Of a stretch of 64,000 bases of DNA, positions 38,970 to 48,192 are shown piece by piece; within the stretch, counting starts at the first letter, position 1, and the number at the start of each line of letters is the position of its first letter. A program made the translations under genes and the position numbers. The DNA is from Mycolicibacterium aubagnense. GTDB lineage: Bacteria; Actinomycetota; Actinomycetes; Mycobacteriales; Mycobacteriaceae. Where the stretch lies: positions 4,898,001-4,962,000 of the forward strand of contig NZ_AP022577.1 in NCBI RefSeq assembly GCF_010730955.1, given 5' to 3'. A model generated the notes under the pieces. It was not told the origin of the DNA. It saw only the letters and a list, made by a program, of their open reading frames with translations, and did not search any database.

Positions 38970-39042
38970 GCGCCGTTAGCTCAGTTGGTAGAGCAGCTGA
39001 CTCTTAATCAGCGGGTCCGGGGTTCGAAACCCTGACGGCGCA
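38970..39042 (+). tRNA. tRNA-Lys (CUU)
   Basis: A full cloverleaf: acceptor GCGCCGT / ACGGCGC with discriminator A, D-arm GCTCAGTTGGTAGAGC, anticodon arm GCTGA-CTCTTAA-TCAGC with CUU at the anticodon, T-arm GGTTCGAAACC. CCA is not encoded. The integrase gene begins immediately downstream and points toward it, so the 3' half is the probable attachment site (attL) of the element to the right. Confidence 0.97.
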
Positions 39043-39054
39043 CTTCAGACAGGG

Positions 39055-39078
39055 TGCCCCCTCCTTCGGGAGGGGGCA
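39055..39078 (+). terminator. UUCG-tetraloop hairpin after tRNA-Lys
   Basis: A 10-bp perfect stem TGCCCCCTCC / GGAGGGGGCA closed by TTCG lies 12 bp after the tRNA and before the convergent integrase stop (39087). It can stop transcription in both directions. Confidence 0.8.
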
Positions 39079-39086
39079 TTCATCGT

Positions 39087-40249
39087 TTATTCATCGTTTA
39101 TTGCGCGGTCCATGAGGTCTGCGACAGTCCTGTGCACCCTGCCTCGTGCCATGTAGCGATCCTGTGTCATCGACACTTTCGCGTGGCCCAGATGGTCCGC
39201 GCCGACTCGCGCGGATAGCCCTTCCTCGTCGATGAGGGTCGCGAGCGTCTTGCGGAAACTGTGGGTGGTAACTCCCGGCACGCAGAGATTCTCGCGGACC
39301 TCTCGCCACTGCCGGTTGAAGTTCTTGGTGTCGCGCCATGTTCCGGCCGACGACGAGAAGATCATCTCCTGCTCTCCGAGCCAGCCCAGCTTCCGGCGTG
39401 CGGCGAGCATGTCTCGGGCGAATTTGGTAGGGCTATCTCCCGCGTACCCGCTTCGGACTTGGTGACATCCACGCGGCGCAGGCCCTTGCCTTTCTCTCGC
39501 AGAACTTTGCCGGTGATCGCTATGGTGCCGGTCGCCACGTCGTAGTCGGTCCAGCGCAGGGCTAACAGCTCGGATTCGCGCAGGCCGGTGGCGATGAACA
39601 TGATGATGGGATCGGTCAGGTCCTTCTTGCGGCATGCAGGCGACTCCAGCAGCTTCACCCACAGAGCGTGAAGCTGATCGCGGTCGAGGGCGTTGGCTCC
39701 CTTGGGTTTCGCGGGGATAGCGATAGGGCGGACGTCACGCACGGGATTGGTCGACAGCACTGTGGCCATCACGGCCAGATCGAGTCCGCCCTTGAGGATC
39801 GTCCTGGCCTGCTTAGCTTTCGCGGCCCCGCTGCCATCTCGGAACTTCCGCAGCGCGGCGTCCAGTCGTGCCGGGGTTGCTTCGGCGACCATCACCCCGC
39901 CCATCACCTTCTTCAGGCCGCCCAGCGCTGACCTGTACGTCTCGATGGTGTTTGGAGACTTCCCGTCGGCCTCCAGGCGATTGATGTGCTCCTCGCATAG
40001 GACTACGACTTTGGTTGCGGGCGTAATCTCGCCGCCGACTCCGGGTGCACGGCGCGCGGCCAGGTACTCGGCAAGGGCCTCCTCGGCGAGCCGACCGTGT
40101 CGGTCTCCTGTCGGCCCGTACCGCTGGACGATGCGCGTCATGCCGTCGGCGTCGCGGTATCGGCATTTCGCCATCCAGCGGCCATCTGGGAGGGCTGAGC
40201 GGGTGATCCGCCCGTGCGTGCCGATCCGTAGCGGCGGCCTACCTGCCAT
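39087..40249 (-). CDS. Tyrosine site-specific integrase, frameshifted
   Basis: Phage-type integrase acting at the adjacent tRNA-Lys. The N-terminal arm-binding domain (from MAGRPPLRIGTHG), the core-binding SAM-like domain (TIETYRSALGGLKKVMGG) and the catalytic domain are visible. Catalytic features are Arg in TGLRESELLALRW, HSFRKT, HLGH and the nucleophile Tyr in TQDRYM. The frame breaks at about 39423-39425: AAATTC should be AAAATTC, giving IALPKFARDML. This looks like one lost A. ATG 40249 was chosen because AGGTG precedes it at RBS distance. Corrected length about 387 residues. Confidence 0.88.
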
Positions 40250-40306
40250 CAATTTCACCTCGCTCCGCCGCTCGGATCTGCGGCGTCTCATTGTCGCGCT
40301 AGGCAC

Positions 40307-40466
40307 TGACGTTCGTGGAGCCCCTACAGCCGTTCTAACTGCTGTAGCAAAACTATAGATCCACTAGGCCGTTGCTATACAGAAACTATACGTGCAGGTC
40401 AGAGGTTTATTTCGGAGGGTGTTCCTGTATGGTGAAGTCTATCGGCAAACGTTGGAGGTTGCTCAT
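40307..40466. promoter_or_regulatory. int-xis divergent control region with repeats
   Basis: Between the divergent integrase and excisionase genes are an inverted repeat CTACAGC / GCTGTAG (40324-40330, 40341-40347), and repeated AACTATA motifs near 40350 and 40385 with GCTATAC between them. These are plausible binding sites for the excisionase or integrase arms and an AT-rich promoter. A GGAGG RBS (about 40454) precedes the xis ATG. Confidence 0.55.
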
Positions 40467-40681
40467 ATGTCAGAGTTTGAACCTGGGAATGTATGGCTAT
40501 CGCGGGAGGACGTTGCTCGCCGTCAAGGAATCCCAGTCGCGACGCTTGCCCAGTGGGCATGTCAGGAAAAGGTCCCCGGTATGCCCGCTTCGGCAGGTAT
40601 GCCCGGTACCGGTTGGCTGACGTAATCGCTTGGGAAAACGAACAATTCGGAGACCGGGGCCACGGCCATGATGCCGCCTAA
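40467..40681 (+). CDS. Excisionase-like HTH protein (Xis), frameshifted
   Basis: Small MerR/excisionase-type winged helix: VWLSREDVARRQGIPVATLAQW, then after correction GPRYARFGRYARYRLADVIAWE. The frame is lost at the AAAA run 40567-40570; a fifth A joins ACQEK to GPRYARFG. Corrected length about 71 residues. Next to and divergent from the integrase, it probably directs excision and represses int. Confidence 0.72.
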
Positions 40682-46306: not shown

Positions 46307-47005
46307 TCACGCGACGGCGGCGAGCTGCCGGTGCTCTGCGGCCGCATCAATGATCCGCGACGCGACGCTGTGGTGAATGCCGACCTGTTTGGCAATCCGA
46401 TTCAGTGGGTGGCCCTGCCCGTGGGCGGCAAGAACCTCCGTGACGGTATCCACCGGCTTCCGAGTCGCCTTCTGTGCGACGAGCTGAACCGCGAGTTCGC
46501 GGATTGAGCTGTCCGCGATTGACGTTGCGCTCTGAGCCTTGGGCGGAGCCGCGTCGTCGCGCACCCGCGTTGCCGCAGTCGCGGGAGTCGCCTTGGTGGT
46601 GTCGCGGTGCGGAGCTGGGGTCACGGTCGCGCTGCGAGTTGCGGTAGGTACCCGACCTGCTGGTTTATCGCCAACCGCGACGAGCGCCAGCGTGGCAACG
46701 CCGATCGCCAGGTCGATGACGAGCGGCAGGACGAGGGCGAGGCGCGGTTGAATGCCCGCGATTACCGCGAGGTCGCGTAGCGCGATGAACGACAGAACGA
46801 ATGCACCGACGGCGAGGGCGGGCGCGACCGCCGCGACCCACACAGCAAGCCACCGGTTGTCGTGCGGTGCAGTGAGCCAGGCGTGGGTCGTGTTGCCTGC
46901 CAGGGAGACGCAGGTCGTGAGGATCAGCCAGGTCCAGAAGAAGCGGATGGCGCTTCTGCGGTGGCGTGCATCGATCTCGACGGCCGTCCTGGTCGTGGGT
47001 GTCAT
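46307..47005 (-). CDS. DUF2637 (SpdB-like) membrane protein with C-terminal HTH
   Basis: 232 residues from ATG 47005 (GGAGG upstream). Four hydrophobic segments (FFWTWLILTTCVSLAG, WLAVWVAAVAPALAVGAFVLSF, ALVLPLVIDLAIGVATLAL) match DUF2637, which occurs in actinobacterial conjugative plasmids as a spread (Spd) protein and in integrated islands. After a linker, VDTVTEVLAAHGQGHPLNRI with HHSVASRIIDAA forms an HTH. It points left, opposite its neighbours. This is the strongest plasmid-like gene of the island. Confidence 0.72.
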   Translation of the reverse strand: MTPTTRTAVEIDARHRRSAIRFFWTWLILTTCVSLAGNTTHAWLTAPHDNRWLAVWVAAVAPALAVGAFVLSFIALRDLAVIAGIQPRLALVLPLVIDLAIGVATLALVAVGDKPAGRVPTATRSATVTPAPHRDTTKATPATAATRVRDDAAPPKAQSATSIADSSIRELAVQLVAQKATRKPVDTVTEVLAAHGQGHPLNRIAKQVGIHHSVASRIIDAAAEHRQLAAVA

Positions 47006-47118
47006 CGCTGGCCCTCCGTGAGGATTGTGGGCGTTGTTCCGGCTCACCCTTTACTCAATCGTGGGCAGGCCATCTTCCAAGGTGTAAGCAAGAGTTACTG
47101 ATGTGGCGAGGAGGAACT

Positions 47119-47313
47119 ATGGCCCTGGACATGAAATTGCTCAGGCAGTTGTCACTAGAGCTTGGGTTTTGGCCCGCAACAGCCGACCCCGAGGACATCG
47201 GACGCCACCGGCGTCTGAACAAGGCCCTCGAAGCTGCGCCCAGCCCGGAGAAGGTCGCGCGCAAGTTTGCGCATCTGCACACCCCGCGCGGTCGACTGCA
47301 TCATGAGCGCTGA
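47119..47313 (+). CDS. Small hypothetical protein
   Basis: 64 residues from ATG 47119 with a GAGGAG RBS. It is basic and helical (DMKLLRQLSLELGFWPATA, EDIGRHRRLNKALEAAPSP). Not recognised. The next small ORF starts within its end (ATG 47303). Confidence 0.5.
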   Translation: MALDMKLLRQLSLELGFWPATADPEDIGRHRRLNKALEAAPSPEKVARKFAHLHTPRGRLHHER

Positions 47314-47443
47314 GAGAGGTTGGATCGGCCAACCACAGCCCACAGTCGACTGGCATGAGTCGCACGCCTCGCGCATGGCTGACAAGGTTTCGAATTCACC
47401 TCCGGTCGACGACCAAGTGAAAAATGAAGAGCCCGAGTTGTGA
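47303..47443 (+). CDS. Very small ORF overlapping the previous gene
   Basis: 46 residues ending in DDQVKNEEPEL, start ATG 47303 eleven bases before the previous stop. Translational coupling is possible but there are no family features. The following 47444-47640 holds no gene I can support. Confidence 0.3.
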   Translation: MSAERGWIGQPQPTVDWHESHASRMADKVSNSPPVDDQVKNEEPEL

Positions 47444-47640
47444 GCGCTCACGCTACTCCCCAACACCGTGACCAGCCCAAATGCATTGACCGCCGGGCCG
47501 CTAGACGTAGCAGTGGTGTAACCAACTGATATGAAATCCCACGGGAGCAGCCGCTGCCGAGCAGTGTCTGTCACCGAGGTGCACACACGGTCAGCCAGCC
47601 TCGTTCGGAACCATAAAGGTGAGAACCGAAGGAGGCCAAG

Positions 47641-47829
47641 GTGAATGCAGCAATTGTCGGAAGCCGGGAGCTGGCGAATTTCCTGGGGGTGTCCCCGTCG
47701 ACAGAGCGCCGTAAGAGGATGAGCGGCCAGTCGTGGCCCCCTCATTTCTCTGTTGGCCGGAAAATCTGTTACACGAGTTCATCTGTGGCCCAATGGATTG
47801 CCGAACAGGAAAGCAATAAGGGCAAGTAA
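47641..47829 (+). CDS. AlpA/excisionase-like HTH protein
   Basis: 62 residues. SRELANFLGVSPSTERRKRM followed by FSVGRKICYTSSSVAQWI is the two-helix-plus-wing pattern of AlpA/Xis regulators. GTG start with GGAGG eight bases upstream. Its TAA is directly followed by the next ATG. It could control the small gene behind it. Confidence 0.6.
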   Translation: MNAAIVGSRELANFLGVSPSTERRKRMSGQSWPPHFSVGRKICYTSSSVAQWIAEQESNKGK

Positions 47830-48192
47830 ATGAAACCGATAATCAGGCACCGGCAATGGGCCAACACCGTTCAGGAGGCTCTGGAGCGCGACGCCGACAG
47901 GGACAAGCCTCGCGGGCGCTACGCCCTGCCCGCGAGGCTGTTCGGCCAATCACCCACTGCGCCACCGACGCCTGTCCCAACTACTACCGATGGCCGCACC
48001 GTGGTCCCTTCGTGCACCTCGCCGGTGGACCCGGTCACCGAGTTCGCAGGGCCGAGCCCGACAGCGACCCGGTTTTCGATGGTTCCTAACCCCAGCGACC
48101 CTGCAAATGATGTGATCAATTGGGCCGCATTCGCGCCGGACTCGCTCAACGATCCGATGGATCCGAACGACCCCGGCGGCTTGACTGGTTAG
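47830..48192 (+). CDS. Hypothetical Pro/Asp-rich protein
   Basis: 120 residues. A basic N-terminus (RHRQWANTVQEALERDADRD) precedes a Pro/Thr-rich, probably disordered region ending in repeated DPMDPNDP. It starts with no gap after the AlpA-like gene, so they are cotranscribed. Function unknown. Confidence 0.45.
   Translation: MKPIIRHRQWANTVQEALERDADRDKPRGRYALPARLFGQSPTAPPTPVPTTTDGRTVVPSCTSPVDPVTEFAGPSPTATRFSMVPNPSDPANDVINWAAFAPDSLNDPMDPNDPGGLTG

Follow-up and report, generated by a model that had tools for sequence, protein, structure and literature searches.

A genomic island of 38,090 bp was found integrated at a tRNA-Lys gene of Mycolicibacterium aubagnense, and it is probably a decayed composite island of phage or phage-satellite descent which carries a replication gene followed by a putative origin (rep-ori cassette). 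The stretch analyzed, referred to here as the window, has 64,000 nucleotides and covers positions 4,898,001 to 4,962,000 of a 6.06-Mb contig (NZ_AP022577.1); the whole genome comprises 6.32 Mb in two contigs and is rated 100% complete. A first-pass annotation had described a block of about 9 kb behind the tRNA gene as an integrated plasmid or phage satellite with its own replication control. A tRNA-Lys-integrated element with a rep-ori cassette is indeed present, but it measures 38.1 kb, its modules look phage-derived and it looks like a relic. The plasmid half of that proposal is the weaker one, because the integrase, the primase-polymerase and a DUF2637 protein with a helix-turn-helix (HTH) all match actinobacterial phages. 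The left 9 kb is a phage-type module, and the remainder consists of insertion sequences (IS), ESX/PE-PGRS-type genes and unknowns.

The borders of the island are given by the tRNA gene and a duplicate of its 3' end, the left and right attachment sites (attL and attR).

38970-39043, + strand: tRNA-Lys (CTT), called by ARAGORN/Rfam; the attL core is formed by its last 37 bp (39007-39043)
39044-64000, no strand: left 25.0 kb of the 38,090-bp island, recognized by attL/attR, compact sites in relatives and a coding score below that of the window's left part; 13.1 kb more lie beyond the window up to attR

The tRNA-Lys gene, predicted earlier, is real. The tRNA-Lys segment as query against its own genome gave six matches, the two island ends and four elsewhere, and one of the six is a truncated tRNA-Lys copy 38.1 kb rightward. 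This attR is an exact 37-bp duplicate of the tRNA-Lys 3' end at contig positions 4975097-4975133, equivalent to window positions 77097-77133. The first-pass annotation had proposed to look for it to the right of 39.1 kb, within about 60 kb, where it does lie, beyond the window; a position inside the 9-kb range was rejected. None of the six matches listed from the whole genome is a third copy of the tRNA-Lys 3' end within the island. Terminator-like hairpins, similar to each other, follow both cores. The 37-bp repeats and the integrase fragments between them show an att-flanked integration by the element's own integrase, though the frame of this integrase is broken. A pair of imperfect direct repeats, each of about 63 bp, was also seen right after attR (window-equivalent 77180-77313; 14180-14313 of L007, the locus covering the right part of the island), and each may form a hairpin as judged by eye. 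A single-strand array of 31 tRNA genes lies outside the window (contig positions 52819-64527, L124) and includes a tRNA-Lys (CTT) 89% identical to that of the window; such an array could compensate for tRNA genes disturbed by islands.

Occupied and compact forms of the site were compared by searching 24 congeners with both flank sequences of the island. The left-to-right flank gene span, with tRNA-Lys between, is below 5 kb in six of them (G008, G013, G011, G002, G023 and G015) and 41.8 kb in the window genome; compact sites thus exist in relatives. Spacing varies widely in other congeners (31 kb in G006, 42 kb in G009, 77 kb in G018), and because of these differences the insertion site is considered a hot spot. 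Sequence beyond the attR core matches the sequence downstream of tRNA-Lys in four congeners (G008, G014, G004 and G016), which fits insertion of the island at that point. On the left side, most congener matches stop at the end of the tRNA or no more than a few bases away, and that of G024 extends 32 bases further. A stretch of about 63 kb between two tRNA-Lys (CTT) matches occupies the same site in its usual orientation in G018 (C10:79003-142656), where ARAGORN calls the outer match a tRNA gene.

The orientation of the site, read by eye from the match listings, differs in the window genome. Of the 24 congeners, 23 have tRNA-Lys on the same contig as the left-flank gene, and in every one of these the two are opposite in direction; in the window genome they share the same direction. 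Congeners with both flanking genes on one contig show no change in the order or orientation of these genes. Since the tRNA direction differs while the flanking genes stay constant, the tRNA, the island and its att ends appear to have been inverted as a single block, with breakpoints between about 38,370-38,920 and 77,180-77,449. As to a cause of the inversion, no long inverted repeat shared by the two flanks was found when they were compared with each other.

The replication gene (rep) and the repeats downstream of it form the core of the left module.

41735-42616, + strand: N-terminal part of a primase-polymerase (phrog_2478 positions 4-242, E 2e-54)
42514-44010, + strand: rest of the primase-polymerase and a RecA-like AAA_25 helicase in a different frame (phrog_2478 positions 238-360; AAA_25 E 1.4e-29)
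44011-44180, both strands: iteron array with the core AACCCCGTCCA, one pair 10 bp apart, and a 20-bp perfect palindrome at 44137-44156; putative origin

The earlier reading of a primase-polymerase/RecA-like protein is borne out, though the gene is split within 42,514-42,616; its counterpart in G184 is one unbroken open frame of 781 residues. The N-terminal part matched 246 phage records, 224 of them from Mycobacterium phages. At an E-value limit of 1e-20, the 498-aa part has matches in 29 of 248 genus genomes (own included), and the scans of genome contigs and viral contigs confirmed no further helicase relatives. The helicase of G232 is 59-60% identical to that of the window, with no primase-polymerase in common, and G184 has only the primase-polymerase in common, so the rep gene of the window is a mosaic. 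The integrase of the G232 element adjoins a tmRNA gene, and its other end was not found. That element has DarT- and macro-domain genes; the DarT-like gene directly precedes the macro-domain gene (G232:C88, L020:12918-14622), and they are probably a DarTG toxin-antitoxin pair. Five helicase relatives were examined with long flanks, and two of these (L022 and L024) are tRNA-integrated elements of about 9 and 13.7 kb with HK97-type head genes, L024 encoding terminase and portal in addition. Satellite-like elements of these sizes with HK97 head genes are those of G068 (tRNA-Arg, 22-bp repeat, about 9 kb) and G034 (tRNA-Leu, 25-bp repeat, about 13.7 kb). As in satellite prophages, the replication module of the island is of phage type.

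Iterons were measured as the best-repeated 9-mer, one mismatch allowed, on both strands of the 300 bp that follow the stop codon of rep. In the window 9 copies were counted, while 100 dinucleotide shuffles gave a mean of 2.55 and a maximum of 4, which confirms the iteron array of the first-pass annotation. The 16 best-matching relative loci were taken for comparison; five repeat the same place, leaving 11 of 32 other match places, or 12 loci with the window, some of which are mutually related and not independent events. At least 5 copies were present in 9 of the 12 loci, in 5 of 150 random 300-bp segments (Fisher p 2e-9) and in 12 of 126 segments downstream of other long open reading frames (ORFs; Fisher p 1e-6). 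Iterons just downstream of rep are a family feature in most of the relatives tested. Similarity of the iterons correlates with similarity of the last 110 rep residues (Spearman 0.31, Mantel p 0.0105; segments of the relatives start 40 bases earlier in this test than in the copy count). The single close helicase relative, G232, has an identical GTCCAA core in its iterons (CCTTGTCCAAC), and those of G184, which has the same primase-polymerase and a different C-terminus, are AGTCGTTCC. Because the core is kept with the helicase and differs with the other C-terminus, the simplest interpretation is recognition of the iterons by the C-terminus of the helicase.

Behind the array lies a gene for a protein resembling the C-terminal part of the replication initiator DnaA.

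44937-45458, + strand: stand-alone DnaA C-terminal protein of 173 aa, with part of the lid subdomain and domain IV and no Walker motifs

The DnaA domain IV-like protein predicted earlier is well supported, with part of the lid as an addition. It matches Bac_DnaA_C (PF08299) at E 6e-18 and 65.1 bits (cut-off 31.5) and PDB entry 3pvp at E 6.9e-26, and it contains the domain IV HTH. It aligns nearly end to end with the last third of DnaA. The AAA+ core with Walker A/B is lacking, as the alignment begins near the lid and TIGR00362 reached 100.8 bits against a cut-off of 343.9. Chromosomal DnaA and other short Bac_DnaA_C proteins thus share the lid part and domain IV with it, and it differs from chromosomal DnaA in its length, in the missing core and in being encoded on a mobile element, next to iterons and a Rep of helicase type. 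Its recognition motif is RDHTVV where DnaA has RDHTTV. Identity is 48% to the host DnaA and 47-49% to congener DnaAs among the matches listed; a recent duplication of host dnaA was rejected, the protein being about equally far from both.

Nine of 248 genus genomes besides the host had more than one match to the protein. A second search of these nine turned up copies or fragments of dnaA, weak hits on other proteins and, in G122, a stand-alone domain IV protein of a different kind. The stand-alone domain IV protein of another mycobacterium (L101) is matched by some phage records annotated as DnaA or replication initiator (lengths of the phage proteins unchecked). When positions 43,900-46,300 were searched against the DNA of 396 genus genomes, the rows over the DnaA part looked like chromosomal dnaA (not each checked) and the other rows fell over the neighboring HhH gene. 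Short domain IV families of NCBIfam and PHROGs (PRK06030 models, phrog_16091) match weakly and have no function attached, and viral-contig scans with the protein confirmed no relatives. Its AlphaFold model, with a mean predicted local distance difference test (pLDDT) score of 58, was not used. The protein is taken to derive by capture from an actinobacterial dnaA and to have an accessory, DNA-binding part. We think that it would most likely act on the timing of host or element replication by binding DnaA-box-like DNA without ATPase activity.

Integrase and excisionase candidates lie at both ends of the left module.

39362-40306, - strand: N-terminal part of a tyrosine integrase (Phage_integrase positions 4-66, 22.4 bits, below the cut-off of 27.1), its frame broken between about 39,370 and 39,470
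39087-39662, - strand: C-terminal catalytic part in the other frame (Phage_integrase positions 92-167, E 4e-8)
40467-40625, + strand: weak excisionase-like HTH protein of 52 aa (HTH_17 E 0.25 only), with a possible continuation in another frame
47641-47829, + strand: Xis/AlpA-like HTH protein of 62 aa (HTH_17 E 9e-5, 23.1 bits, under the curated cut-off of 27)

An integrase had been expected and a tyrosine integrase is there, but not intact, as its catalytic domain switches frame at about 39,370-39,470. The N-terminal part matches 113 phage records, Rhodococcus phage REQ3 being the best (35.8%). The excisionase proposed at 40467 is weakly supported, and a second candidate, itself below cut-off, was added at 47641-47829. 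The first candidate may be split too, and it is too weak to count as evidence of decay. As the integrase and the primase-polymerase are each split between two frames, the element as assembled looks like a decayed relic and not a working replicon.

Genes for particles or transfer were searched among the island ORFs; those of at least 250 aa were all scanned against Pfam except the antisense frames 45459-46235 and 56515-57273 (- strand), some were scanned against PHROGs, and small ORFs were covered partly; these scans turned up no gene of either kind. The FtsK family (PF01580) has 17 matches in the genome and none within contig positions 4936970-4975176, so the translocase of actinobacterial integrative conjugative elements was not found there. 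Capsid (PF05065) and terminase (PF03354) families have no match in the whole genome. No PHROG head family was detected in the 20 window ORFs scanned, and head, packaging or helper-hijacking genes of a satellite were not seen among them. The first-pass annotation had seen neither virion nor FtsK genes, and over the 38 kb this holds; no capsid or TraB gene came to light further right in the element.

From what is known of these gene families, the tyrosine integrase and an excisionase would have moved the element in and out, and the excised circle would have replicated from the rep-ori cassette, the C-terminus of the primase-polymerase/helicase recognizing the iterons downstream of its own gene. 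Particle or transfer genes may never have been owned or may have been lost. Later, IS elements and ESX/PE-PGRS-type cargo would have been gained, the block would have been inverted together with the tRNA, and the intact integrase and primase-polymerase frames would have been lost.

Satellite prophages of mycobacteria such as phiRv1 and phiRv2, compared here only through L022 and L024, resemble the island in tRNA-type integration, a primase/AAA_25 helicase, a small core and, in L024, iterons after the helicase gene; unlike the island, in which none were found, L022 and L024 encode HK97-type heads, and the island has 29 kb of other DNA. In the phage-inducible staphylococcal pathogenicity islands (SaPI), a primase/helicase-type Rep has its own iteron origin directly downstream. 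The likeness considered is one of layout, and the phage-interference or packaging genes of SaPI were not seen in the window element. Actinobacterial integrative conjugative or mobilizable elements (AICE/AIME) contain Int, Xis and Rep at a tRNA site. An Int-Xis-Rep module beside tRNA-Lys, with a weak Xis, the DUF2637 protein and the lack of particle genes agree with a decayed element of this type, and the HhH-fold protein also occurs on plasmids (33 records). The FtsK-like gene would then have been lost or be supplied in trans, and one FtsK match does fall in a 449-aa open frame elsewhere, at contig position 85136. This origin is nevertheless quite improbable, as the 38 kb has no FtsK match, the primase-helicase part meets a single plasmid record and the integrase, primase-polymerase and DUF2637-HTH genes match phages. 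Somewhat unlikely, yet the most serious alternative, is a history of at least two unrelated insertions, in which cargo and IS were added independently to a small satellite-like element of about 9-12 kb on the left and the 38-kb att pair spans a patchwork. Module types do change after about 48 kb, there are four IS-type insertions, and a stray tRNA-Thr and a resolvase fragment lie at 51.5-52.1 kb; against it, no third tRNA-Lys end marks an inner border.

Descent from a phage or phage satellite with later decay is preferred, and several points weigh against it. The right 29 kb is not tied to satellites and could represent separate acquisitions stacked on one att pair, and particle genes may have diverged beyond the models. 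Three relatives (L015, L020 and L022) have only 4 iteron copies, a count reached by 1, 6 and 15 of 100 shuffles; the iteron measure was picked after the window iterons had been seen, and its correlation with the helicase C-terminus is modest. The frame breaks could be assembly errors. Completeness of the genome and the mostly long, unbroken ORFs left of the island argue partly against this, while about 26.8-32.4 kb likewise lacks long ORFs in a simple gene model and the two breaks fall within 3.3 kb of the element; there is a slight chance that the breaks are sequencing errors and that the element is intact and mobile. The DnaA-like protein itself might be the iteron-binding initiator. About 760 bp separate the start of its gene from the last iteron, the GTCCA of the iteron core is the middle of the mycobacterial DnaA box, which we take to be TTGTCCACA, and the G232 iterons are even closer to this box. 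Of the positions invariant in 22 mycobacterial DnaAs, 70 fall in domain IV and 51 in the lid, and the protein retains 44 and 23 of them, respectively. However, G232 has the same iteron core and helicase and no such gene in the 19.9 kb examined around them, so the iterons can be explained without the protein; iteron sequences differ in other relatives. Clustering of DnaA boxes in the element was rejected as main explanation, with 22 found and 25.8 expected in the window at one mismatch. A role as initiator is thus very doubtful. A broader proposal, in our judgment unlikely, is that the element uses its captured, ATPase-less DnaA to steer initiation, either in competition with the host DnaA at oriC or in support of the element's own origin. 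The iterons of this origin, with GTCCA here and CTTGTCCAA in the nearest relative, may be derived from DnaA boxes; mycobacterial satellites and islands would also share a transferable rep-ori cassette in which iterons and helicase C-terminus change together and define compatibility groups.

The other genes of the left module are as follows.

40768-41175, + strand: DUF7245 protein (phrog_2858) of unknown function, from Pfam/PHROG matches
44298-44642, + strand: ORF of 114 aa, unknown
45495-46223, + strand: HhH-GPD-fold protein (phrog_29694), from a PHROG match and the predicted fold
46307-47047, - strand: DUF2637 membrane and HTH protein of mycobacteriophage type (DUF2637 E 1.8e-7)
47830-48192, + strand: ORF of 120 aa, unknown

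The HhH-GPD-like protein has no Pfam match, and its predicted structure (pLDDT 90.2, from a nine-row alignment) resembles endonuclease III, thymine-DNA glycosylase, OGG1 and MutY in the top Foldseek matches (best E 2.2e-3, none at E <=0.001; probability 1.00, TM score 0.51 by query). The model supports an HhH-GPD fold of the endonuclease III/OGG type, in line with the first-pass annotation. Inspection of the nine-row alignment by eye, without superposing structures at the site, revealed no evident catalytic Asp after the hairpin. Of 248 genus genomes, 40 (own included) contain relatives; viral-contig scans confirmed none. A fixed partnership with the rep module was rejected, since nine loci carrying HhH relatives do not share it. 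The DUF2637 protein, also foreseen, is of phage type: all 21 phage records matched are Mycobacterium phages.

The right part of the island contains IS elements and cargo.

51497-51571, - strand: tRNA-Thr (CGT) carried by the island (ARAGORN/Rfam)
53947-55370, + strand: Mutator-family IS with its transposase in pieces; a second copy, 99.7% identical, lies at window-equivalent 74631-76056
58125-59228, + strand: IS110-family transposase
59978-62959, + strand: protein with a PE-PGRS_C aspartyl-peptidase-like domain
63173-63763 (L007:173-763), + strand: serine resolvase/invertase

An IS3-like gene pair, weakly DUF5677- and DUF6615-like proteins and unknowns complete this part. The tRNA-Thr has no other near-identical copy in the genome, and the tRNA-Thr (CGT) in the array of 31 tRNA genes is a different one. 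At L007:4372-6353, a WXG100/EspC-like gene is directly followed by one for an Abhydrolase_8 protein with a weakly WXG-like N-terminus, and the two look like an ESX-secreted pair. Two island proteins of 391 aa, encoded at 50261-51436 (- strand) and L007:1816-2991 (+ strand), are 27% identical over about 250 residues; at the limits used, Pfam, NCBIfam and PADLOC gave no match for either. PADLOC, run on 10 proteins, gave only a weak PDC-S05 match (55376-56179). A simple codon model trained on 11 long regional ORFs, a relative measure which finds few long genes also at about 26.8-32.4 kb, calls genes on 84% of the DNA left of 38.5 kb and on 39% of the island.

The iteron arrangement common to relatives and the captured DnaA C-terminus deserve to be followed up. 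If the rep-ori pattern holds, the origins of many mycobacterial islands would be locatable from sequence alone, and the compatibility of Rep and iterons would become directly testable. A mobile element carrying just the DNA-binding third of DnaA would offer a natural means of probing the competition between host and parasite for replication initiation.

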